NCBI GenBank assembly: GCA_003208835.1
Contig: QCVD01000005.1
Span: 1-64,000 of the forward strand
Direction: 5' to 3'
Source: Synechococcus sp. AG-683-C23
GTDB taxonomy: Bacteria; Cyanobacteriota; Cyanobacteriia; PCC-6307; Cyanobiaceae
Length of the DNA: 64,000 nucleotides
Position 1 is the first letter of the stretch, and each line of letters opens with the position of its first letter. A program made the position numbers and the translations under genes. This document shows positions 1 to 40,451 of the stretch, in pieces. The notes under the pieces were generated by a model. That model had not been told where the DNA came from. It saw nothing but the letters and a program-made list of their open reading frames with translations, and ran no database searches.

Positions 1-639
1 GAAACACGCAAGGAAGACAAAGTTCCGGTGAAACCAGACCAGCTATTTGGGCTGATCGACAGCTTGTGCGACAAACCTGAACTACGTCTCGCCGTAACCC
101 TGGTCGGCCTATTTGGACTACGACCAGCAGAGCTAAAAGCGATGCGTGTGGTGGACGGAAAGCTGAAGGTTGGAAACGTCAAACGCAACCGCGCTACAGC
201 CAAAACACCGAAGCCAGACCGAATCGCCTACCCACTGGAGTTACCAGAACTGGCAGGTGCTGCAGGACAGGCACTTGCTCAGCTTGAAAGCGGTCTAGTG
301 AAGCTGCCCACTGGAATCGTTAATGCCCCTGACTTCAAAACTTGCGGCCACTCCTTCCGGCAATACCTTGATCGCCATTCGTACTGGGCAACCCTCGTGA
401 AAGCCAACCCGGGAATGTCTCCATACAGCCTGCGCCATGGCTACGCCTACCGAGGCGCTCTGGCCGGTATCCCTCTCAGGCAGCTCGCAGCCTCAATGGG
501 CCACGACGTGCGCACCCATATGAAGCACTACGGCCAATGGACTGATGAAGCCGGCCTTGATGCTGCCTTTGGTGCAGCTAATGCCAGGCTGACTGCATCA
601 CTGACCGAGCGTCAGCAGCAGATGCAGCAACAGCAATAG
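1..639 (+). CDS. Tyrosine recombinase/integrase, C-terminal part (frame open through window start)
   Basis: Frame reads ETRKEDKVPVKPDQLF from base 1; catalytic-domain motifs SLRHGYAYRG (HxxR-like) and MGHDVRTHMKHYGQW (active Tyr region). Confidence 0.85.
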   Translation, partial: ETRKEDKVPVKPDQLFGLIDSLCDKPELRLAVTLVGLFGLRPAELKAMRVVDGKLKVGNVKRNRATAKTPKPDRIAYPLELPELAGAAGQALAQLESGLVKLPTGIVNAPDFKTCGHSFRQYLDRHSYWATLVKANPGMSPYSLRHGYAYRGALAGIPLRQLAASMGHDVRTHMKHYGQWTDEAGLDAAFGAANARLTASLTERQQQMQQQQ

Positions 640-708
640 TCAGCGCACAGGCGGGGGGCAGCGTTTCCAGCCTGATCGGGTGTGAACTCAAGGTTGGCGC
701 AAAACTAT

Positions 709-1059
709 TTAAAAGCCGCCTGGCTCTTCAGGCATTTCACCGCTCGGATAGACGGTCAGTGCGTATTTGCCGTCAACTACAAAGCGGAAAAATTCCCCAA
801 AGTCCTGCTTTCTGTACGTCTTGCCCTGCTCGTCTAATGGAAAGTTGAAACTCCCTCGCGCGCTGTTGATGAAGGCGTTGCCCTGTTGATCGGCAAAGTC
901 GCAGGCAAAGTCCTCAGAGGGGGATGGCGGATCCAGGACCATCAGCTCGCACAGAGCACCCTTGACGGTATTGGCAGAAGCAAAAGGTGGATACATCGGC
1001 TCGCCTACGGCGATCAATGCTGCAACGGTGGCAACGGTGGTGAGTGAGATGCGGATCAT
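709..1059 (-). CDS. Hypothetical protein with possible signal peptide
   Basis: 116 aa ORF, hydrophobic N-terminus (MIRISLTTVATVAALIAVGEPMYPPFASA). Confidence 0.5.
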   Translation of the reverse strand: MIRISLTTVATVAALIAVGEPMYPPFASANTVKGALCELMVLDPPSPSEDFACDFADQQGNAFINSARGSFNFPLDEQGKTYRKQDFGEFFRFVVDGKYALTVYPSGEMPEEPGGF

Positions 1060-1091
1060 TGTTTTCTCTTGGCGCCTGCCTCTTAGTTAAA

Positions 1092-1394
1092 TCAATTCTG
1101 TGCCTTGTCGTTAGCTCTATCTGACGATGTACATAACTTGGTCAGCACTGACCCATCGCACGAGTCCTCAGTCAGCTCAATCACTTTGCGCCTTAGGAAC
1201 ACGCTGTCGATACGCCAATGACATAGTCCCTGCAGCTTTTCCTGCAACCCATTCACATCTATTAAACGCTGACCACTAGGCATATTGATATGCAAGTGGT
1301 CATCCAACCAACCATCATCAATCAACTTGTAGAGCTGTGATCGGCTCTTATATCCAAGATGTCTTGCAGCACCGCTAATGCTCATTAATTTCAT
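1092..1394 (-). CDS. Small helix-turn-helix (excisionase/MerR-like) DNA-binding protein
   Basis: N-terminus MKLMSISGAARHLGYKSRSQLYKLIDDGWL is typical of HTH_17/excisionase-like folds. Confidence 0.55.
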   Translation of the reverse strand: MKLMSISGAARHLGYKSRSQLYKLIDDGWLDDHLHINMPSGQRLIDVNGLQEKLQGLCHWRIDSVFLRRKVIELTEDSCDGSVLTKLCTSSDRANDKAQN

Positions 1395-1476
1395 TTGCGC
1401 GTCCCTTACTGTCTTCTATTTTAATTGCTCCACGCTAAACAAATAGCGAGCGTTTGAACGACCCACAGCGTTTACC

Positions 1477-2109
1477 TCAGGAGGGACCCTGAACAGATTC
1501 ACAGCCAGAATCAGCTTCGCTATTTTTTTTATTTTCTGCCTTCAGAAGCGGTGGATTGGCAGGGCTATTTTCATCCAATCTTCTTTCAACCTCTGACACA
1601 GATGCCTTGATTACATCGTCAGGAGGACGTCTATCCACTTGGTAGTTTTTAGGCGCAAATAAAAATATTGACTCCCCTATTCTCTCTTGGTGCCCTCCCA
1701 AGCTGTAGCAACCGCCAGCCACAAAGTCGACAGAGCGCTGAGCCAATTCAGGCTCCTGCATTGTCAAATTTAAATTAACAACATTCCCCTGCTTCATCGC
1801 ATCAATACAAATAGCCATTTCAGTAAACTTTGTAGGCTCAGCGATATAGATAAACGGCTTTTGATCTACAGCCAAATTCGACTCATCAGTCCTCAAAGAG
1901 GTCGCACCCCCAGCAACGGCAAGACCATTAACAGCTGCCTGTGTAAGAAGCGCGCGAAAAACACTTGCTCGATCGGTGCCTGAGCTAGCCACAAGAGTGT
2001 CTAATGCCTGCAGCTCTGCCGCATTCAGCGTCACCTTTACTTGATGGGTCCTTCTCCCCGGCTTTTCAGGAGGTGGAGTTGGGGCGTCCAAACCGTCAAG
2101 ATCATCCAT
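1477..2109 (-). CDS. Chimeric protein: ribbon-helix-helix-like segment + SepF-like cell division domain (start 2109 or 2139 uncertain; open frame reaches 2433)
   Basis: SepF signature KPFIYIAEPTKFTEMAICIDAMKQGNVVNLNLTMQEPELAQRSVDFVAGGCYSLGGHQERIGESIFLFAPKNYQV (about 1636-1860); upstream RRTHQVKVTLNAAELQALDTLVASSGTDRASVFRALL resembles RHH/CopG (about 1930-2046). The longer frame overlaps the divergent gene at 2318, so an internal start is likely. Confidence 0.8.
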   Translation of the reverse strand: MDDLDGLDAPTPPPEKPGRRTHQVKVTLNAAELQALDTLVASSGTDRASVFRALLTQAAVNGLAVAGGATSLRTDESNLAVDQKPFIYIAEPTKFTEMAICIDAMKQGNVVNLNLTMQEPELAQRSVDFVAGGCYSLGGHQERIGESIFLFAPKNYQVDRRPPDDVIKASVSEVERRLDENSPANPPLLKAENKKNSEADSGCESVQGPS

Positions 2110-2317
2110 AAGGACCAGGCAGGGACCAAGGTCCCTCATGTCTCCTAATAGTAAGTGATCGTCAAAAGCATTGCAAACACTATGGGATGAACCACGCGCG
2201 AAAAGCCCGCTCACTCTTTCGAGCGCGTCAGTCCTTATGAGTCCTTGACATCTAAGGGGCTGGGTCCCTATAAAAGGACCGTAGTCATTCAGCGGGCATC
2301 CGCCCTCTCCTCGATCG

Positions 2318-2563
2318 ATGATCAATCTCAAGTCAGCATTGGCCTTGAGCGCAGTAGTGCTCGGCATCTCCTCTGCATCCAGTGCAGCTATCGCACAAAC
2401 GTATGTGGGTGGATACCACCGCAGTAACGGCACATACGTAAGGCCCCATTACCGGTCCAGTGCAAATCACACCCAACGGGACAACTATTCGACGCGTGGC
2501 AACACCAACCCTTATACCGGCGCAAGAGGAACTAAATCTTGCGGTCTATGGGGATCTTGCTGA
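2318..2563 (+). CDS. Small secreted protein
   Basis: 81 aa with signal peptide (LSAVVLGISSASSAAIAQ) and YVGGYHRSNGTYVRPHYRSSANHTQRDNYSTRGNTNPYTGARGT motif seen in small exported proteins. Confidence 0.65.
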   Translation: MINLKSALALSAVVLGISSASSAAIAQTYVGGYHRSNGTYVRPHYRSSANHTQRDNYSTRGNTNPYTGARGTKSCGLWGSC

Positions 2564-2564
2564 C

Positions 2565-2596
2565 AAAAAGCCCGAGGGGGAATCAATCCCTCGGGC
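2565..2596 (-). terminator. Rho-independent terminator downstream of capsid gene
   Basis: Inverted repeat GCCCGAGGG (2570-2578) / CCCTCGGGC (2588-2596) with A-run 2565-2569 (U-tract on minus-strand transcript). Confidence 0.75.
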
Positions 2597-2626
2597 CATG
2601 CACTCACAAATCAGGACGTGTCGCGG

Positions 2627-4327
2627 TTATGCGATCGCGTCCTGCATCGCTGCAAATGATTCAGCGTGGCGGACTGCAATATCGATGCTCTGCAAGACCC
2701 GAACGCCTGTCGTGCCCTTAGCGAAGTCCGTGTAGGGGTCTACAAGTATTTCGAGCGTGCCAAAGAGCCCGATAAGCAGGTCGGAGAAATTTCCGTAGAT
2801 GACAGCGGACAGATCGGCCCCTGAACCCTTTGTGAGGTTTGAGGGGACATTGTTGCTGACCTCAAAACGCCGCCCTGCAATCTGGGAACGGCCAAGTTCA
2901 GCTCCATAAGGGCTGAGGAGGTACTGGCCTTGACTGTCCTTGAGCTTTCCAAGAACCGACTCGACTTTTGTGTTCGCAAGGAACCCGCAGGAGGCGACAT
3001 CAGCGTTATCAGCGGCGACCTCTTGTTTGAGATCCAACAGGTTGTCCAACGTTGGCGCGGCACCATTTGTTCCGCCGGCCACGCTCCCGATCCCTGACGT
3101 GTTCAGGATGCCGAGCGGTTGATTGCTTGATCCACTGCCGTTGATTGCAGCGGTATCGATTGCTTCAGCAATTAGGGCGACGAAGTCGGAGCGGATGAGC
3201 TGTTCGATGTCAGGCGTCGATTGCAGGCTCATCAGATGGGAGAACTTGCTCAGTGCACCAACCGTTTTGGGTGACATCGTCACGGTGCCGATGGTCCCAG
3301 TTGATTCAGTAACTGAGTCCGAGTTATCAGCACCAAACCAATACGCCGTGGCACTGCCGGTGCGCTTGGGGATGCTCACGTCACCGACCAAACCACTCAG
3401 AAATGTTGCGCCGAGTTCTGCAACGGCGAGGCGAGCGCGCAGTGCATCGATGAAGTTGTCAGCAAGGTGATCAGTGGCAATTAAGTTGCCGCCTGCAGTC
3501 GCTGTACCTGCGACATAAGCGCGTTTCTTCCAACCGTTATCTGGAACAAAAAAGCCCTGGGTACGGCGACCATTGCGGCGCTCAAGCTCTTGGTTGATTT
3601 CTGCTTCTCGGCCTCTGAGACCACGCCCGGAAGCGATGCCTTGGGCTGCAGCCACGATGGAGAACTGATCAATCTCGCGGCTGTATTCGTCTTCCGCCAC
3701 CCCATATGGAGCGATCGGTTCATAGGTGCTGGTCATTGTTTTGTGGGTCGTAGTTGGTTGTGAACGGTTCACGCCAATTGATGCGTCAGCAGGGATGCTC
3801 ACGACGCTGAGTTCGATGGGCTGCCATTTGCGGACAACCATCACCTCGCCCTCTTTCTCTGCATCGAGGACGGAATAGCCAACGCTGATGTTGGGCATCA
3901 CGCCCGCTTCCACGTCTTTACGGACCTGAATAGCGAGGTCATTGGTGGCCCATTGGATGCGGGCCATGCCTCGGCGTTTCTCATCGATCCATGCCCGCTC
4001 GACGATGCCGAGCACACGATCAGGGTCGTGATTCAGCAGCAGTGGAGCTGCGCCACCATTGAGCCTTGAGAGGTCAACGGCTTGGCGGTCATGGTCCAAA
4101 ACCTCATCACCGAAATATCGAGTGACAGGGGTTTCGCTGCTGAATGAAAACTCAAGCTGATCTGCATCAGCCTGTGGTTTATCGATGGTGAGATAACGCC
4201 GTTGGACTTCAACGGCTGTGGTTGTCATAGGAAGCCTTGCTTTCAATGAGGTCCCGTAAATAACGCCTTGACTGAGCAGAAGCCCGGTCATCTTCCCGAG
4301 GATCAGGTTGCCTTGGGGAGTCGTCAT
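2627..4327 (-). CDS. Fused HK97-type prohead protease + major capsid protein (start possibly 4228)
   Basis: N-terminal U35-like protease (LLLNHDPDRVLG His; PIELSVVSIPADASIGVN Ser motif), C-terminal HK97-like MCP (NLIATDHLADNFIDALRARLAVAELGATFLSGLVGDVSIPKRTG...NQPLGILNTSGIG...VLVDPYTDF-like). Confidence 0.85.
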   Translation of the reverse strand: MTTPQGNLILGKMTGLLLSQGVIYGTSLKARLPMTTTAVEVQRRYLTIDKPQADADQLEFSFSSETPVTRYFGDEVLDHDRQAVDLSRLNGGAAPLLLNHDPDRVLGIVERAWIDEKRRGMARIQWATNDLAIQVRKDVEAGVMPNISVGYSVLDAEKEGEVMVVRKWQPIELSVVSIPADASIGVNRSQPTTTHKTMTSTYEPIAPYGVAEDEYSREIDQFSIVAAAQGIASGRGLRGREAEINQELERRNGRRTQGFFVPDNGWKKRAYVAGTATAGGNLIATDHLADNFIDALRARLAVAELGATFLSGLVGDVSIPKRTGSATAYWFGADNSDSVTESTGTIGTVTMSPKTVGALSKFSHLMSLQSTPDIEQLIRSDFVALIAEAIDTAAINGSGSSNQPLGILNTSGIGSVAGGTNGAAPTLDNLLDLKQEVAADNADVASCGFLANTKVESVLGKLKDSQGQYLLSPYGAELGRSQIAGRRFEVSNNVPSNLTKGSGADLSAVIYGNFSDLLIGLFGTLEILVDPYTDFAKGTTGVRVLQSIDIAVRHAESFAAMQDAIA

Positions 4328-4632
4328 CTACAGGTGTTCTGATCACTGATTGACCGATAATTGGTGTCATGTGAATGCCTTTAATCTAGACAACTATATG
4401 CATTAATTATAGCTAATTTCTTATATTCGTTTAATTGACCTTATTGAATAGAGGTCACGCCTTGTTCGCTACCTAGTTCAGACTATTCAAGCTTAATTGC
4501 CCTTAATCGTCGCTAGTAGATATGCTATTAAGCCCCCTTTAACCTGGCGCTAGCGCGGCAATGGGGTCCGAATCAACCCATACACGCACTGACAGCCAGG
4601 ACCCTGAGTTGCACAGATATTAGAAGTCATGG

Positions 4633-5700
4633 TCATTGAGGGGGTGTGTTGGAGATGTAGGAAAAGTCCAGATCCGCATAGACATACATAGGTCGACCTC
4701 CTGAGTGAGGGAGTTTCTCCCTCTTCAATTCGCCTTGTGTGAAAAGCTTTTGCAGCACTCTTCTTGCATGTTCTGGGTTGCAGCTGATTTCCCTTGAAAT
4801 CTCATTTGTTGTCCATCGCTTTTCGCTGCCACGAATTAGATCGCAGACCTGGTTTGCAATCTCTAAACGCCTCATCGGCAGGACATCGTTTTGGTCGGCA
4901 ACGCTATGCAATCTATGGGAGTAATCCTCTTTGCATCCGTCAATATTCCAGGTAGTACCTTCTTCGCAAAATCTAGGTTTTAAGCAGCGCAACATGAGAT
5001 GTGTATCCAGCTCTTTATCTGGTTTATCAGCTCTCCAAATTCCCCAAACATCGCTTGCCGCCCAGCCTTGACTACCAGCACCATATAAATCAGCAATCTT
5101 GACTTTATTGGTCGTTGTCTCTCTCCCCTGTTTGCGTAGGTGACATGTCATCCCAATTAAGACACCTTCATCTGATGCCCAGTCATTTAGGGCATACAAA
5201 GGAAATCCAAATTCAGCGTCATTCATCCTTGGACCATCAGAGTTTCTACCAAAAAGAGTTGTGATGGAGTCAAGAAGGATGGCGTCATAACTCTCTTGCT
5301 CCTGCAAGGCATTGAGACGCTGCATGTCAAACGTCTTCATATCGGTGATGAAATCAAAAGCTGGGTCCATACCCATTACCTGAAGCTTGCGCTGTGCATT
5401 GCGCTCGCTTTCATCGGCCTGAATCACCAACACCTTGCTTTTCTGAGTGGTTAGTTGACCCATAAAGGGTTCCCCAACACTCATGGCTTGAGCCATTCCA
5501 TAGAGAAATGTGGTTTTGCTGGAGCCTGTATCCCCGGCAATTACAAGCAACGAACCACGACAGGCCAATTCAGTAATCAACCATTCCTCTTTTTGCTTGC
5601 TCGCGAGTAGTTCTCGGGCTGTAGGGACTTTTCCTACATCCCCAACACTGGGGTCAACCCATTCATGTCGAGCTGCAATTTCGTGAAGTTCAGAAGTCAT
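4633..5700 (-). CDS. RepA-like AAA ATPase/helicase
   Basis: Walker A AGDTGSSKTTFL, Walker B YDAILLDSITTLFG, RepA/AAA_25-like order; ATG at 5700 overlaps the primase stop. Confidence 0.8.
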   Translation of the reverse strand: MTSELHEIAARHEWVDPSVGDVGKVPTARELLASKQKEEWLITELACRGSLLVIAGDTGSSKTTFLYGMAQAMSVGEPFMGQLTTQKSKVLVIQADESERNAQRKLQVMGMDPAFDFITDMKTFDMQRLNALQEQESYDAILLDSITTLFGRNSDGPRMNDAEFGFPLYALNDWASDEGVLIGMTCHLRKQGRETTTNKVKIADLYGAGSQGWAASDVWGIWRADKPDKELDTHLMLRCLKPRFCEEGTTWNIDGCKEDYSHRLHSVADQNDVLPMRRLEIANQVCDLIRGSEKRWTTNEISREISCNPEHARRVLQKLFTQGELKREKLPHSGGRPMYVYADLDFSYISNTPPQ

Positions 5701-6685
5701 GTGAATGCGGCCTCCAGCCGTGATGTTTTGCCCAAAACCAGAACGAACCTGCAGAGACTTGCTCTCCACCACTGCGACACACCTGCCTGACATCCCACCC
5801 CGAACTGTTTGAGGGGCTATGTGCCTCCATCAGTTCAATGGCGACCTCCTCTGGAAATCCGCGGTCCTTACAGGCAGCACTCAGTCCCCAAAGGATCGAT
5901 CTGTATTTCGAATAGGTGTTGCTTCCTGGCACACGCCTAGGGATGCAATGAAGTCCGTCAGCTATGTCAACAAGGGGACGAGGCTGATGCTTGTTCGTGA
6001 CTTTGCGTGGAATGTGCCTGTGCTCTTGAGGAGCAGGCAGACACCGCTCGAATTGATCAAGCGTGTATTTGATGTCGCTGCTGCTGACAATCTCCACACG
6101 GCCTTTTGGCTTGCCATCAGGACCTATGTAGAGACTCCCTGGCAGCCGCATCACACGGCTTAGGTCCTTGCAAGAAGGATCACTACCGCAATGCTTGATC
6201 AATTGACATTGCACCTTCTTCCAACGCTCAAGGTCACTGCAATCGCCCAGCACCCAATAGGTGTGGATGGACTTACCGCTGGTTGAAACCTGTATCGAAG
6301 GTTCAGGCAGGTTGAGGTCTTGCCAGGCATTGAGTTGCCATTCGACAGGCTGGTCATCCCACTCAACGAAAAGAGCGCAGCAGTGAGTGATCTCAGCTGC
6401 CTTGTCTCCTCCTTCATTGATAACTAGATAGAGACCTCTACCTCCGTCCTGCCATTGCTGAGCTGCAAAGAGGTCAAACGATCCAGAACGAGAACCAAGG
6501 TTCTTCAGCTGAGTAGGAGGGAAAGAACGAATACGAGCAGTTAGCTCTGATTTGCCAAGCAGATCAAGGAAATAAAGCGCCGTAGCAGCGCAAATCTCAT
6601 TCGATCCAACACCAGGGATTCCCGGTAAGTTTTCAGTAGGTTTTGAAATCTCACCGGCCCCTGTTTCCGCAGGGGCTTTTTTCAT
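5690..6685 (-). CDS. RepB-like primase/polymerase domain protein
   Basis: FVEWDDQP, STSGKSIHTYWVL and DLSRVMRLPGSLY motifs of plasmid/satellite primases. Confidence 0.75.
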   Translation of the reverse strand: MKKAPAETGAGEISKPTENLPGIPGVGSNEICAATALYFLDLLGKSELTARIRSFPPTQLKNLGSRSGSFDLFAAQQWQDGGRGLYLVINEGGDKAAEITHCCALFVEWDDQPVEWQLNAWQDLNLPEPSIQVSTSGKSIHTYWVLGDCSDLERWKKVQCQLIKHCGSDPSCKDLSRVMRLPGSLYIGPDGKPKGRVEIVSSSDIKYTLDQFERCLPAPQEHRHIPRKVTNKHQPRPLVDIADGLHCIPRRVPGSNTYSKYRSILWGLSAACKDRGFPEEVAIELMEAHSPSNSSGWDVRQVCRSGGEQVSAGSFWFWAKHHGWRPHSHDF

Positions 6686-6963
6686 CCCTTTTGCTCCAAC
6701 TCTTCGAGTCGTTGCGTCATTGCAGTGACTGCAGTTTTGAAGTGTGCACTGACCTCTTGAGCGAGGTCTGCAGCATTAGCAGCCGCTGCACGATTCACCC
6801 CCATGCCTTCTTGCAGCTGACCAAGGCAAGCCATCAAAACGGTGACACTGCTGATGAGGCGCTGATCAAGCTCAGTGCTTGCCAATGGCATCAGTTCATC
6901 GCGCCAAGCATCGCTTTGCTCTTTGACCTTTTCAGTCGTCCAAAAGATGTCGAGGTTCGTCAC
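6682..6963 (-). CDS. Hypothetical protein (GTG start overlapping upstream stop)
   Basis: In-frame GTG at 6963 overlaps the TGA of the 6960-7184 ORF; coupled cassette. Confidence 0.6.
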   Translation of the reverse strand: MTNLDIFWTTEKVKEQSDAWRDELMPLASTELDQRLISSVTVLMACLGQLQEGMGVNRAAAANAADLAQEVSAHFKTAVTAMTQRLEELEQKG

Positions 6964-7184
6964 TTCAACACCCCCTTCCGAGCACACATTCCGCGGTAGT
7001 TGAAAGCCTCTCGGCAACGTTCAATGCACCAAATAATTGGGCTATTTGCAGTTGCACCTAGGAAGTAGTCCTTCCCGTTTTCAAGAAAGCCGCCGCATGT
7101 CTCACGCTTTCGCTTAAGCGTGTCCGTAGAGATGCCAAGAGCATCCGCCGCTGCCTTGGTCGGCAGGAAAAGTTGAGTTTTCAC
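6960..7184 (-). CDS. Excisionase-like small HTH protein
   Basis: LFLPTKAAADALGISTDTLKRKRETCGGF HTH-like N-terminus; first gene of the replication cassette. Confidence 0.6.
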   Translation of the reverse strand: MKTQLFLPTKAAADALGISTDTLKRKRETCGGFLENGKDYFLGATANSPIIWCIERCREAFNYRGMCARKGVLK

Positions 7185-7192
7185 TATCCGCC

Positions 7193-7567
7193 TCAGTTCT
7201 TGAACGAGACGATGAGCTGCTCCTTATTTGGAGACTCAATCCAATAGGACCCATACACCTTGCTGCTGTACGGATCCTCACCAGCCTCTAAGAGAGCAAC
7301 GTATTCATCGCGCTTGGCCCAAAGCTGATCGCGGGTCAGACCAGCTAATTCACGTTTGCGGAGAGCATCGCGAAGCTCTGGCTGACCATCAGAGATGCGA
7401 TCGAGATGGTTTGGCGCATAGGGATCGTTGACCAGCTGCTCAAGCAGCCGATGGAATTGCCATCGGCAATGCCAAGTGAACTCATCAACTCCACCAAGGT
7501 CAACACGAACTCCGTTGTCCTTAATTTGCCGAGGCTTGTCTTTGAACTTGTTCCGAGAAGTAGGCAT
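7193..7567 (-). CDS. Hypothetical element protein
   Basis: ORF MPTSRNKFKDKPRQIKDNGVRVDLGGVDEFTWHCRWQFHRLLEQ..., colinear with the element operon. Confidence 0.55.
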   Translation of the reverse strand: MPTSRNKFKDKPRQIKDNGVRVDLGGVDEFTWHCRWQFHRLLEQLVNDPYAPNHLDRISDGQPELRDALRKRELAGLTRDQLWAKRDEYVALLEAGEDPYSSKVYGSYWIESPNKEQLIVSFKN

Positions 7568-7792
7568 AACAGTTCCTTGCTGTCTTAGGAACCGTTCTCC
7601 CAATCACCAGCCAGTCCCGAAAGCCGAGACCTACTTCCGTATTGAACAGCTATTGCAACACCATATATGCTGCTGTAATCCCTAGCAAGTCAGCTACACC
7701 ACAGGTAGCGGCAGAGGCGCAAAAGATCACACCACGAATCACACCAACGACGACGATTCAGCGCAAAATAAAAACAGCCAAAAACTAGAAAA

Positions 7793-7811
7793 CCCTTCCA
7801 GCGGAAGGGAT
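7793..7811 (-). terminator. Hairpin downstream of tRNA-Ala
   Basis: CCCTTCC-AGC-GGAAGGG with A-rich flank on the left (U-rich on minus-strand transcript). Coordinates approximate. Confidence 0.5.
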
Positions 7812-7819
7812 TCAATCAA

Positions 7820-7892
7820 TGGAGCCAAGCGGATTCGAACCGCTGACCCCCTGCATGCCATGCAGGTGCTCTACCAGCTGAGCTATGGCCCC
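7820..7892 (-). tRNA. tRNA-Ala(GGC)
   Basis: Reverse complement GGGGCCATAGCTCAGCTGGTAGAGCACCTGCATGGCATGCAGGGGGTCAGCGGTTCGAATCCGCTTGGCTCCA folds as a cloverleaf; anticodon GGC. Confidence 0.95.
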
Positions 7893-7953
7893 AAAAACGA
7901 TGGACTTGCCCTCGAGCAAATCAGCGTCGTTGGAACTTTACACCGCGAAGTTC

Positions 7954-9656: not shown

Positions 9657-11531
9657 TCAAGCGGTAACACCCTCAGGGAGAACACTCGCCTCCAACATTT
9701 GTCTGAGATCTTCGCCCTCAATCACTTCTTTTTCGAGAATCTTCTGGGCGATTGTTTCGAGAAGACCTATGTTTTGACGAAGGATCGAAAGAGCATCGTC
9801 GTGGGCTTTGTCGACAAGACTGCGCACTTCGTGGTCGATCGCTTGAGCTGTGGCATCACTCACTGAACGGCGGGGATTGTTGTTACCGCCAAGGAAACGG
9901 CCACCTCCCTGTTTGTCGTAGGCCAAAGGACCAAGGGTGTCGCTCATGCCATAGGTCCCCACCATTTGCTCAGCAAGATCGGTGGCTCGCTGCAGGTCGT
10001 TGGCAGCACCAGTGGTGATTTTGCCGAACACAATCTCCTCGGCCGAACGGCCACCCAACAGCGTGGCGATTTGCCCCTGAAGATCTTCTTTAGAGTTGAG
10101 GAAACGTTCTTCCGTGGGGAGTTGAAGCGTGTAGCCCAAGGCACTCATCCCTCGAGGAACAATCGAAATCTTGGCAACTTTGGTGCCGCCTGGCATGAGG
10201 TGGCCAACGATTGCATGGCCAACCTCGTGATAGGCCACCACCTTTTTCTCATCGTCTTGCAAAACGCGACTTTTCTTCTCCAAACCTGCGACGACACGCT
10301 CAATGGCTTCACCCAGATCTTGCTGTTCAACCCGAGTGCGCTTCACCCGAGCCGCTAGTAGAGCTGCTTCGTTTACCAGGTTGGCCAAGTCGGCACCGGC
10401 AAATCCGCTGGTGGATTGGGCCACGCTATCAAGATCAACACCTTCAGCCAATTTCACTTTCTTGGCATAAATCTCGAGAATGGTCTTGCGACCGGAGAGA
10501 TCTGGACGGTCGACGAGCACTTGACGATCGAAGCGGCCTGGACGCAACAGCGCTGCGTCGAGGACCTCGGGCTGGTTGGTCGCTGCAAGAACAATGACTG
10601 GCTTATCTTGGGCAGCAAAACCATCCATTTCGGTGAGCAATTGGTTGAGCGTTTGCTCGCGCTCATCATTTCCGCCCACAACTCCCATGGAGCCGGACCG
10701 ACTCTTACCAATGGCATCAAGTTCGTCAATAAAAATAATGCACGGCGCTTTCTTCTTTGCTTCCTCAAACAGGTCGCGGACACGAGCAGCACCCGCACCT
10801 ACAAACAACTCAACAAATTCCGAGCCGGAGATGATGAAGAAAGGAACTTCCGCTTCTCCAGCTACCGCCTTGGACAGCAATGTTTTACCAGTTCCAGGAG
10901 GGCCAACTAACAACACCCCTTTCGGAATGCGAGCCCCAATTTCTGTGTAACGCTCAGGCGTTTTGAGGAAGTCAACGATTTCTGTGAGTTCGTCTTTGGC
11001 TTCATCAACACCAGCAACATCTGCAAAGGTGACGCGAGATTCTTCATCCGGTACGTATACCTTGGCTTTGCTCTTGGTGAAGCTCAGGGCACCCTGCGCG
11101 CCTCCACCCATCGAACGACGAGCAAAAAACTGAAGAACGACAATGAAAATTAGTGGGGGAACAACCCAACTCAAAATCGTGGTGAAAATATTGGGTTTTT
11201 TCGGCGGTGCTGCAGCGAACTCAACGCCTTTTGCTTCAAGGCGTTGGGGTAGATCCATATCAAAGATCGGGGTTGTTGCCAACACAGGAGGAGTCCCTTC
11301 CTCAGGAGCGGTCAACTCGTAACGGATTTGATCTTGGGTAATGAAGGCCCGTTTGACGGCGCCATCATTGACTTGGTCAATAAATAACGAATAGGGAACC
11401 CTCGGCACCTGCTGCATGCCGTTACTTGGGATAAAGCTGCTAGCCAGCAACAAAACACCGAAACCAATCAGCACCAAGTTGATGATTCCGAAACGACGGT
11501 TCGGTTGATTGTCGTCCTGACGGATCGGCAT
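9657..11531 (-). CDS. ftsH: ATP-dependent zinc metalloprotease FtsH
   Basis: [27 protein letters not shown] zinc motif. Confidence 0.97.
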
Positions 11532-11626
11532 AGCCCACGACTGCTGTTCGTGCACGCTACGAGGGATAAAGCGAAGCGTGAAGTCAGCATGGGTGTGAGA
11601 ACCGAACGGCCCCTAACGTCTCGGGA

Positions 11627-12295
11627 ATGTGTGGTCGTTACTGCCTCGAATCAACAGCCGATCAATTGACGCGTCACCTCAGGCCATGGCTTAAGGCAGG
11701 CGATGCTCCATGGCTGAAGCATTACGCCCCCCGGGCGCTGATTCAGCCTGGGGAGCCAGTGCTGGCGCTTCGGCGCGAACATTGCCAAAGCAGAGCTGTG
11801 CACATGTTGTGGGGGCTGCTACCGGGCTGGGCCAAGGATCCACTGACCAGTCATCGGCCCATCAACGCCAGGGCCGAAAGCATTGCTGAGAAAGCCTCCT
11901 TCCGGGGCCCCTGGCGCCATCACCGTTGCCTTTTACCCAGCAGCAATTTTTTTGAAAAAGGCCATCAAATCGGCCGGAGCGACCAGGAGATTTTTTGGCT
12001 GGCGGGGCTCTGGGATCGCTGGGTGGGTCCTGATGGCAGCGAAGTGGAAACCTGCTGCGTGATCACCACAGAGGCCAATGCCTTGGTCAAGCCACTGCAC
12101 AACCGCATGCCCGTGATCATTCCGAACGGATTGGAAGACGTTTGGCTGGAACCCGGTGACAAGCACCATCGCCATGCCCTTGAACCGATGCTCTCTCCTG
12201 TTTCTGCAAAGGGTTGGTGCTGCAAAACCACATCTGCATCTGCAAAAACTGGTGGAACCAGCCTGATCCAACCGGAACAGCTCAACCTGCTCTAG
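11627..12295 (+). CDS. SRAP (HMCES/YedK) domain protein
   Basis: MCGRYCLE N-terminus, ARAES and HNRMPV motifs. Confidence 0.9.
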   Translation: MCGRYCLESTADQLTRHLRPWLKAGDAPWLKHYAPRALIQPGEPVLALRREHCQSRAVHMLWGLLPGWAKDPLTSHRPINARAESIAEKASFRGPWRHHRCLLPSSNFFEKGHQIGRSDQEIFWLAGLWDRWVGPDGSEVETCCVITTEANALVKPLHNRMPVIIPNGLEDVWLEPGDKHHRHALEPMLSPVSAKGWCCKTTSASAKTGGTSLIQPEQLNLL

Positions 12296-38429: not shown

Positions 38430-40451
38430 TCAGGAACCGGAAATGTATTCATGCAATTTCCACTCTTTTCCATCCCTCCCCAGCACGTAGGTCACGGTCA
38501 ACGCGCCTGGAGGCGTCTGATCAATCACCGTTCCAGAGCGGTCGAGGGTCTGATCCGAATAGTCCACCTCAGCCTTCACAGCGATGCGTCGTGATGTTCG
38601 GCTCACTACGTCAACACTGGTGACTGATGCCTTGATGGTTTTTGTGCGGCCCAGCGCAGCATCAGCGGTGCGCTCAGCTTGCACCCGTCGCAACAACCGA
38701 TCGCGCGCAACCGTCGAAATCTGGCTCGAAACCGCTTCAGGCACGGCATTGGACTGGCCCGCCAGCGCATTGGCTTTGGCGTTCAACCAGCCCTGGACGA
38801 GATCCTCCAGTTGCTGCTCAGAAGGCACATCACTCGTTAACGGCTCAATTGGGCGATCCAGGGGCTGCTCCGGTTGGAGAGTGGCTAAGGGAAGCGCTGT
38901 CTCATCAAGATCATCGAAGGCCGGCAACTCCGGTTCCTGCTTCACCACTGGCGAAACTGGTGGTGCATCGCTTCGCTGACGCAGCATCAACGAGACGCCG
39001 CCACCAACAGCTGCCAGGACGGCCACCAGCACCCCAAGCTTGACCACGAGCGGTCGTGGTAGTTGGGGAAGCCGGGGCAGTTGAGGCAGTTGAGGCAGAA
39101 AGAAAGAAGGGAGGCGCATGCCGCGTTCTTCCAGACCCTCCGAAGACTGCTCGGAAGCCGAAATAGGCTCCCCAGACTGAAGACCCAGCCCAGAGGCAAC
39201 GGGGGTCTCCCAAGGCAAAGGCAACGCATCGTTGAGCGGCTGGCGGGACGCTTGGCGATCCAGTCGTTCGACGTGGTTCTGCACATCACGGTCGGCAAAC
39301 CAGGCGTCGAGATCAATGGCCGTGGCATCAACATCGCGATAGCCCGGCAAAACATCCCGCCCAAGCCAAGCCCTGCAGTATTCACACTGCGCCGCCAAAT
39401 TGTCGCCGGAATGCTGCAGGAACCAAGCCTGCACCTCCGCATCTCGGATCGCGGCGAAGTGATGCTCCGCCTCACGGACATTGCCAAGCAACAAGTCAAG
39501 ACAGCCCAGAAGGGGCTTCGGATCCAGCTCTGAGTCCGGCAGGAGTTGAAGACGGTCCCGCGCCTGCTCAAGGCATTCAGGCTTACGCCGGGAAAAACCT
39601 GCAGCCGTCAGGGCAACAACCGCCAAAAATCCTGCTTCTGCTTCGCCCTCGTCCGACCAACCAGTGAAGAGATCGATTTGTTCTTGCACCGTGAGGAAAC
39701 GGCGGATTTGTTGGAAGAACGATTCGAAATCGTCTTGGGTCATCGACCCTGCCCCCTCCACGGAGGTAACGAAATCCGTTCCATCCAGCCCGCCTCGGCG
39801 ACTGACAAGCTGATCGAGCAGCGTCAAGCCCTTTTGGTGAGAGGCCTGATCGCTCAGATCTCGACTGATCAGATCCAGAATTCTGAACGGCAGAAGAGCT
39901 TCTAAGTCGCCTTCGAGCCTGCGCTGCTGATCGGGCAGCTTGCCCATGCGCTGTTGTAGTTGGATTCCTTCCACCAACAATTGCGCCGCTGCTTCATAAC
40001 GGCGCTGACCCTGTTCTTCCACTGCTGCATCACGACACGCCAAAGCGGCCAACAGTGTGAGATCAGCTTCCCGCCCACTACCGAGGGCAGGCGCTTGGGG
40101 GGGCTGAAGCCCATGACTCGCCATTTGAAACGCCTCGAGGGCTCCATGGGCCTCCCAAAGAAGAATCAATCCAGCCACTTCACTGCTTGCAGGAAGGTCG
40201 AGTCCGACGGTCTCGTTTGGGTGAGATGCACTCAAACGAATCAGAGCAGATTCGTATTCGGCACGGTCATCTCGATCGGTGAGGAGATCAGCCGAACGAC
40301 TCAGCAGTTCGTTTCGTTTGAGCAGCGCTTCATGGGTAAATCCCTGATCAGGCGGACCATCACAGCGGGTTTGTAGCCGGTGAAGGATGGCCGCCGCATC
40401 AGCGGAAGGACTGACACCCAGCAGTCGGAAATGATCGATGGGCAAATCCAA
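38430..40451 (-). CDS. ftn2: ARC6/Ftn2 (ZipN)-like cell division protein
   Basis: N-terminal J-like domain ([22 protein letters not shown]), single TM, C-terminal IMS domain ([14 protein letters not shown]...). Confidence 0.88.

Follow-up and report, generated by a model that had tools for sequence, protein, structure and literature searches.

A SepF core joined to a ribbon-helix-helix segment in a picocyanobacterial satellite: a possible DNA-bound division factor

SepF is known as the membrane anchor of the Z-ring. In C. glutamicum SepF, residues K125 and F131 touch the FtsZ tail, and mutating them abolishes binding; a SepF core lacking the membrane part can still bind FtsZ and bundle it (PMC7118173). 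Too much SepF blocks division in B. subtilis and M. smegmatis (PMC5717166), and in Anabaena it makes the cells longer (PMC12288457). DNA-bound proteins that bind the FtsZ tail also exist, SlmA being one (PMC4117426). The locus described here joins a SepF core to a ribbon-helix-helix (RHH) segment, a domain architecture that is new relative to the literature searched: no description of such a fusion came up when papers outside subscription journals were searched for SepF and ribbon-helix-helix in combination.

The gene lies in a 64,000-nucleotide stretch (the window) that forms the start of contig C5 in the incomplete draft genome (77% complete) of Synechococcus sp. AG-683-C23. Its product has 210 aa when read from ATG 2109 (P0001) or 220 aa from ATG 2139. 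Both halves of the protein are real, the RHH half being less certain than the SepF half. The element and the fusion show the following features:

28-639, plus strand: tyrosine recombinase, C-terminal part, cut by the contig end (PHROG integrase E=9.7e-11; Pfam PF00589 sub-threshold)
1092-1394, minus strand: small protein with an HTH-like N-terminus (similar N-terminus in the protein after the capsid gene of L119)
1477-2139, minus strand: RHH-SepF fusion gene, start ATG 2109 or ATG 2139, stop 1477-1479 (ORF, SepF Pfam match, seven further fusions)
1636-1851, minus strand: SepF core, residues 87-158 of P0001 (Pfam, PDB match, Foldseek)
1681-1683 and 1663-1665, minus strand: FtsZ-contact equivalents R143 and F149, respectively (alignment with C. 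glutamicum SepF)
1921-2055, minus strand: RHH segment, residues 19-63 of P0001, QVKVTLN strand and two helices (RHH_1 sub-threshold, hhalign, AF2)
2110-2136, no strand: proximal operator-like sites, AAGGACC and the perfect palindrome AGGGACC-AA-GGTCCCT (2121-2136)
2230-2281, no strand: distal operator-like sites, AGTCCTT twice, GGGTCCCT and AAGGACC
2318-2563, plus strand: divergent small protein with a signal-like N-terminus, sharing the operator region with RHH-SepF (by-eye comparison)
2627-4327, minus strand: prohead protease-major capsid fusion (Phage_capsid 6.3e-48, Peptidase_S78 7.4e-7, PHROG 7.7e-112)
4633-5793, minus strand: AAA_25 helicase-like protein (Pfam, PHROG)
5690-6685, minus strand: primase/helicase-related replication protein (PHROG E=1.6e-26)
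6960-7184, minus strand: small HTH-like protein of the satellite early module (sub-threshold HTH matches)
7819-7893, minus strand: tRNA-Ala (GGC), the integration site (relatives' homology ends at or near the tRNA 3' end)

The element part spans positions 1-7818 and holds an integrase C-terminus, small HTH-like genes, a protease-capsid fusion, an AAA helicase and a primase-like gene, with RHH-SepF placed between the protease-capsid gene and the integrase. Homology to relatives stops at 7818-7820; in the same-genus genomes nearest to this one, and in almost every other genome whose alignment extends to the tRNA, the alignment begins at or near the tRNA 3' end. The 3' end of the tRNA recurs, over 41 bp and with 1 mismatch, at G000:C12:9424-9464, and this copy adjoins, by eye, sequence that flanks the same site in genome G001; contig C12, we infer, carries the other end of the same island. 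AcrB-type efflux genes (L161:3606-7028, on the same contig) lie beyond this att-like copy and may belong to the island too. Extra partial tRNA-Ala 3' copies near the intact gene in G001, G002, G014 and G015 suggest stacked elements, and G001 also has a broken integrase-like gene at the tRNA-Ala site.

The sequence-only reading had placed the gene in an integrated element, a location supported by the integrase, capsid and replication genes and by the tRNA-Ala junction. It had also linked the element to a Ftn2 homologue at 38430-40451. That gene is a genuine ARC6 but lies about 30 kb off, beyond the tRNA-Ala, in ordinary host chromosome, and is left out of the system.

The gene order primase, helicase, capsid, HTH and integrase recurs in L119, an 8.7-kb contig from a viral collection, whose capsid is 67% identical to that of the window. 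Because L119 keeps this order without SepF, RHH-SepF is an accessory gene that a capsid-bearing satellite carries as cargo. The 7.8-kb element part, truncated where the contig ends, showed neither a tail nor a lysis module. A known phage gene was considered and rejected: IMG/VR scans with the fusion and with the SepF core gave no match, and phage records gave distant matches to the SepF core only.

Relatives were collected by searching picocyanobacterial genomes with the N-terminal part and then with its profile. The RHH subfamily appears in eight further genomes, joined to SepF in seven of them, so that the search for the fusion in other cyanobacteria proposed by the sequence-only reading found it in seven other picocyanobacterial genomes. 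With the window included, eight of nine members are fusions, seven of them above the Pfam cut-off (the relatives at 84.3 bits in G220, 54.6 in G281, 47.3 in G390, 53.6 in G586, 37.3 in G432 and 46.2 in G470); G316 is sub-threshold at 21.6 bits, and G204 is the sole case of RHH without SepF. G390 is Prochlorococcus AG-355-N16, G316 is AG-347-L20 and G204 is AG-436-C13. The linker is short in the window and G220 proteins. A long, probably coiled-coil stretch precedes the RHH in G281 and separates RHH from SepF in G390, G432 and G470, with TPR-like repeats after it in the last. In G586 (L113:8043-9788), a single protein of 581 aa combines an RmuC nuclease domain, RHH, a coiled coil and SepF, and its gene adjoins tRNA-Pro. 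The family is rare, found in 6 of 400 sampled family genomes, and 388 genomes from elsewhere in the phylum gave no convincing match to RHH-SepF. No integrase was found within 10 kb of the other fusions, so the case for those loci being mobile depends on their patchy distribution and on a tRNA gene within about 2 kb in four of them (G316, G586, G432 and G470). A SepF-core tree, with too few columns and long branches, did not separate one fusion origin from several.

ATG 2109 is most likely the start of the RHH-SepF coding part. In this form the N-terminus aligns with the relatives in G204 and G220, its MDDLDGLDAP pairing with MSDLDSAKVP of a Prochlorococcus relative. The start chosen earlier, ATG 2139, is also plausible and has AGGAG 5 nt upstream. 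A still longer start at GTG 2433 is unlikely, because it would overlap the divergent gene. The product of that divergent gene gave no match in a Pfam scan. In two elements, 80-aa proteins that resemble each other and have signal-like N-termini are encoded divergently from the RHH gene: at 2318-2563 of the window, beside RHH-SepF, and at L057:9971-10210, beside the RHH-only gene of Prochlorococcus AG-436-C13.

The SepF half is identified by several matches. Pfam SepF (PF04472) matches over its full length (1-72 of 72) with E=9.9e-21 and 74.2 bits against a cut-off of 27, and the PDB SepF 3zih matches by sequence with E=5.9e-9. When the AF2 model is searched with Foldseek, SepF structures rank first (3zih, E=8.6e-6; the SepF/FtsZ-CTD complex 6sat, E=1.1e-4). 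The SepF core that had been read in the C-terminal part is thus borne out. The core shares 40 of 72 residues (56%) with host SepF, and the stretch AQR.VDFVAGG...GHQER.GE.IFLFAP is near-identical to host SepF in both the window and G220 copies. A canonical host sepF lies at G000:C15:27160-27375, which rules out the possibility, raised in the earlier reading, that the element gene is the host's only copy. Another candidate identity was the second short SepF-like protein (about 95-160 aa, typically with GWHDV.V..PE.F..) found in the same genus and many other picocyanobacteria (loci L033-L042 in G005, G006, G007, G009, G012, G013, G019, G020, G021 and G025); it was rejected, the inspected paralogues having no RHH.

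R143 and F149 of the window protein occupy the positions of C. glutamicum K125 and F131, and the same R/F pair occurs in the host, B. subtilis and G220 SepF proteins. The pair is E/I in G281, K/Y in G390, E/Y in G432, K/F in G470, E/F in G586 and N/A in G316. Judged by these residues, the window and G220 copies look FtsZ-competent, and the other copies may have lost or altered the contact. The changes in G281, G432, G586 and G316 imply that FtsZ binding is not a family-wide constraint, and a universal FtsZ role is weakened accordingly. At the N-terminus, host SepF begins VSLISRLRAVVAGDDYL, whereas the fusion read from 2109 begins MDDLDGLDAPTPPPEK; with a moment of 0.16 against 0.37 for the host, this form lacks the amphipathic membrane-targeting helix. 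Starting at 2139 would prepend MRDLGPCLVL, whose moment of 0.37 fits either the presence or the absence of such a helix.

Pfam RHH_1 (PF01402) falls below the cut-off on the window protein itself (E=0.008, 16.5 bits against 20.5) and matches five of six subfamily members, and hhalign against a CopG-type set gives 94.4% with E=8.4e-8. The AF2 model, low-confidence overall (mean pLDDT 50.7, from a 4-sequence alignment), places helices at 30-43 and 47-65 after QVKVTL with a block pLDDT of about 62-84; the strand is absent from this monomer model. A sequence-profile search of solved RHH structures gave no match. A TetR-type fold, as in SlmA, was not found in the window protein, which matched only RHH-like and SepF families. 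The earlier proposal of an RHH/CopG-like segment replacing the membrane-targeting N-terminus therefore probably holds up, on the hhalign score and the RHH_1 matches across members, even though the window copy is sub-threshold. The recurrent fusions, together with repeats upstream of every member, suggest that DNA binding is more than a resemblance.

Side-by-side reading shows AGTCCTT/AAGGACT repeats in the upstream regions of all nine RHH genes. The most widespread 6-mer is AAGGAC/GTCCTT, present in nine of nine regions with 23 copies, whereas 300 dinucleotide shuffles averaged 0.93 and never exceeded 5. In a leave-one-out analysis, the motif was picked among 6-mers containing two or more G/C at eight loci and tested in the ninth. 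The window scored P=2.3e-6, and P ranged from 4.1e-6 to 8.7e-2 at the other loci; the result is weak in G281, G220 and G586, with one copy each. The repeats share the consensus RGTCCYT and form two clusters relative to the start, one spanning about -5 to -40 and the other about -120 to -200. In the window they include the palindrome at 2121-2136, which, beside the gene start, is the sole one in the element with arms of at least 7 and a spacer below 3. Since conserved repeats lie upstream of all nine genes, a strong if indirect argument, the RHH subfamily very probably binds DNA next to its own gene, including its own promoter region. A scan for consensus promoters and terminators found nothing above chance. 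Near host sepF, RHH-type sites form one small cluster, apparently in coding sequence well upstream. At L054, 156-bp direct repeats (90%) at 117-272 and 11524-11679 surround 11.4 kb with the G281 RHH-SepF gene and contain AGTCCTT pairs.

Taken together, these observations favor a reading in which RHH-SepF is an autoregulated, DNA-bound, FtsZ-binding factor of the satellite that modulates division under dose control, either blocking the division machinery or reporting on it. Its probability is put at roughly 45%. The best-supported part is a probable autoregulated DNA-binding protein with a SepF core, to which we infer an added FtsZ step. The RHH would occupy RGTCCYT repeats, some close to the start of its gene and others some 120-175 bp upstream, where the divergent satellite gene starts, thereby controlling its own dose, an arrangement the sequence supports. 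The membrane-free SepF core, attached to DNA, could then bind the C-terminal tail of FtsZ, and possibly the host's SepF as well. Such tethered binding might antagonize or misplace the Z-ring, as DNA-activated SlmA does; alternatively, Z-ring assembly might titrate the repressor off its operator, making satellite genes follow the host division cycle. The FtsZ step is favored because the window copy keeps the SepF surface with both contact residues. Dose control fits autoregulation as well, since excess SepF blocks division and a satellite carrying it would need to limit the amount. More tentatively, the fusions may represent a class of DNA-tethered FtsZ-binding regulators in picocyanobacterial satellites and islands, in which AGTCCTT recognition would couple element expression or maintenance to the host Z-ring as a mobile analogue of SlmA.

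A plain repressor is a rather unlikely alternative to this division-modulating role, yet it survives best among the rivals. The SepF core would then be only a second dimerization or oligomerization module, looping proximal to distal operators without touching FtsZ. RHH segments and SepF cores are both dimeric in known families, and two dimeric modules would suit cooperative binding and looping; the conserved operator arrays alone would explain repression, and the loss of FtsZ-contact residues in several relatives points the same way. A mere dimerizer, however, needs neither near-identity to host SepF nor both FtsZ contacts, and the SepF half of the window and G220 proteins has kept them.

An improbable reading is that the fusion acts in segregation, its RHH on a centromere-like array and its SepF linking the element or island with the Z-ring during partition or the handling of DNA at the septum, with nuclease partners (RmuC, DUF2130) helping. 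RHH proteins are centromere binders on plasmids. Eleven tandem 11-bp repeats, TCAGACTTTTC, lie directly upstream of the RmuC-RHH-SepF gene of G586, and DUF2130 (PF09903) genes stand beside RHH-SepF in three Prochlorococcus-type loci (L054:7882-9174 in G281, L056:11199-12836 in G316 and L113:5716-7071 in G586). Segregation is nonetheless less likely because no ParA/ParM-type partner was found among the element ORFs scanned (7.8 kb) and because the window element is chromosomally integrated, so that partition would not be needed; at most loci, moreover, the repeats occupy promoter positions and are not long arrays. Neutral cargo, a stray captured paralogue of host sepF with no role for the element, is very improbable: larger picocyanobacterial genomes often encode a second SepF-like paralogue, but those inspected have no RHH. 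The upstream repeats, moreover, are retained across fusions whose linkers differ, a pattern suggesting selection for the combination.

A satellite-borne family of this kind, with a DNA-binding domain and its own conserved repeats in place of the anchor, would mean that a division protein has been remodelled by mobile elements as a regulator addressed to DNA. Two questions can now be put to the test: do satellites influence or monitor the division cycle of their hosts, the most abundant phototrophs of the sea, and can a SepF core function off the membrane?

Compared with known systems, the element resembles tycheposons, VEIMEs and capsid-forming satellites in its tRNA site, tyrosine recombinase, primase/helicase and own capsid gene. 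Integration at a tRNA 3' end with a duplicated att site is present, and so is the capsid gene; the relative L119 is small and satellite-like at 8.7 kb, and the window element is truncated by the end of its contig. Unlike these elements, it carries an RHH-SepF cargo that is absent from the literature searched. Lambda Kil and other phage division inhibitors are likewise mobile-element factors aimed at FtsZ, as would be the case here, but Kil is a small peptide that is not known to contain a DNA-binding or SepF domain (PMC3961180). CdrS of Haloferax is an RHH protein tied to division control as a regulator of ftsZ2; it differs in being a small RHH protein with no SepF domain described, encoded by a host gene directly upstream of ftsZ2 (PMC8406309). 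SlmA, which acts in E. coli nucleoid occlusion, is a sequence-specific DNA-binding dimer that also binds the FtsZ tail, as the fusion may do; SlmA is, however, TetR-type with no homology to it, and SlmA sites are spread around the chromosome, whereas those of the window are known only beside the gene. SepF itself, as in B. subtilis, C. glutamicum and cyanobacterial Cdv2/SepF, shares the full-length core, the same Foldseek fold and the FtsZ contacts kept in the window copy, but the window protein probably has an RHH segment instead of the N-terminal membrane-binding helix, is encoded by a satellite and is preceded by upstream repeats.
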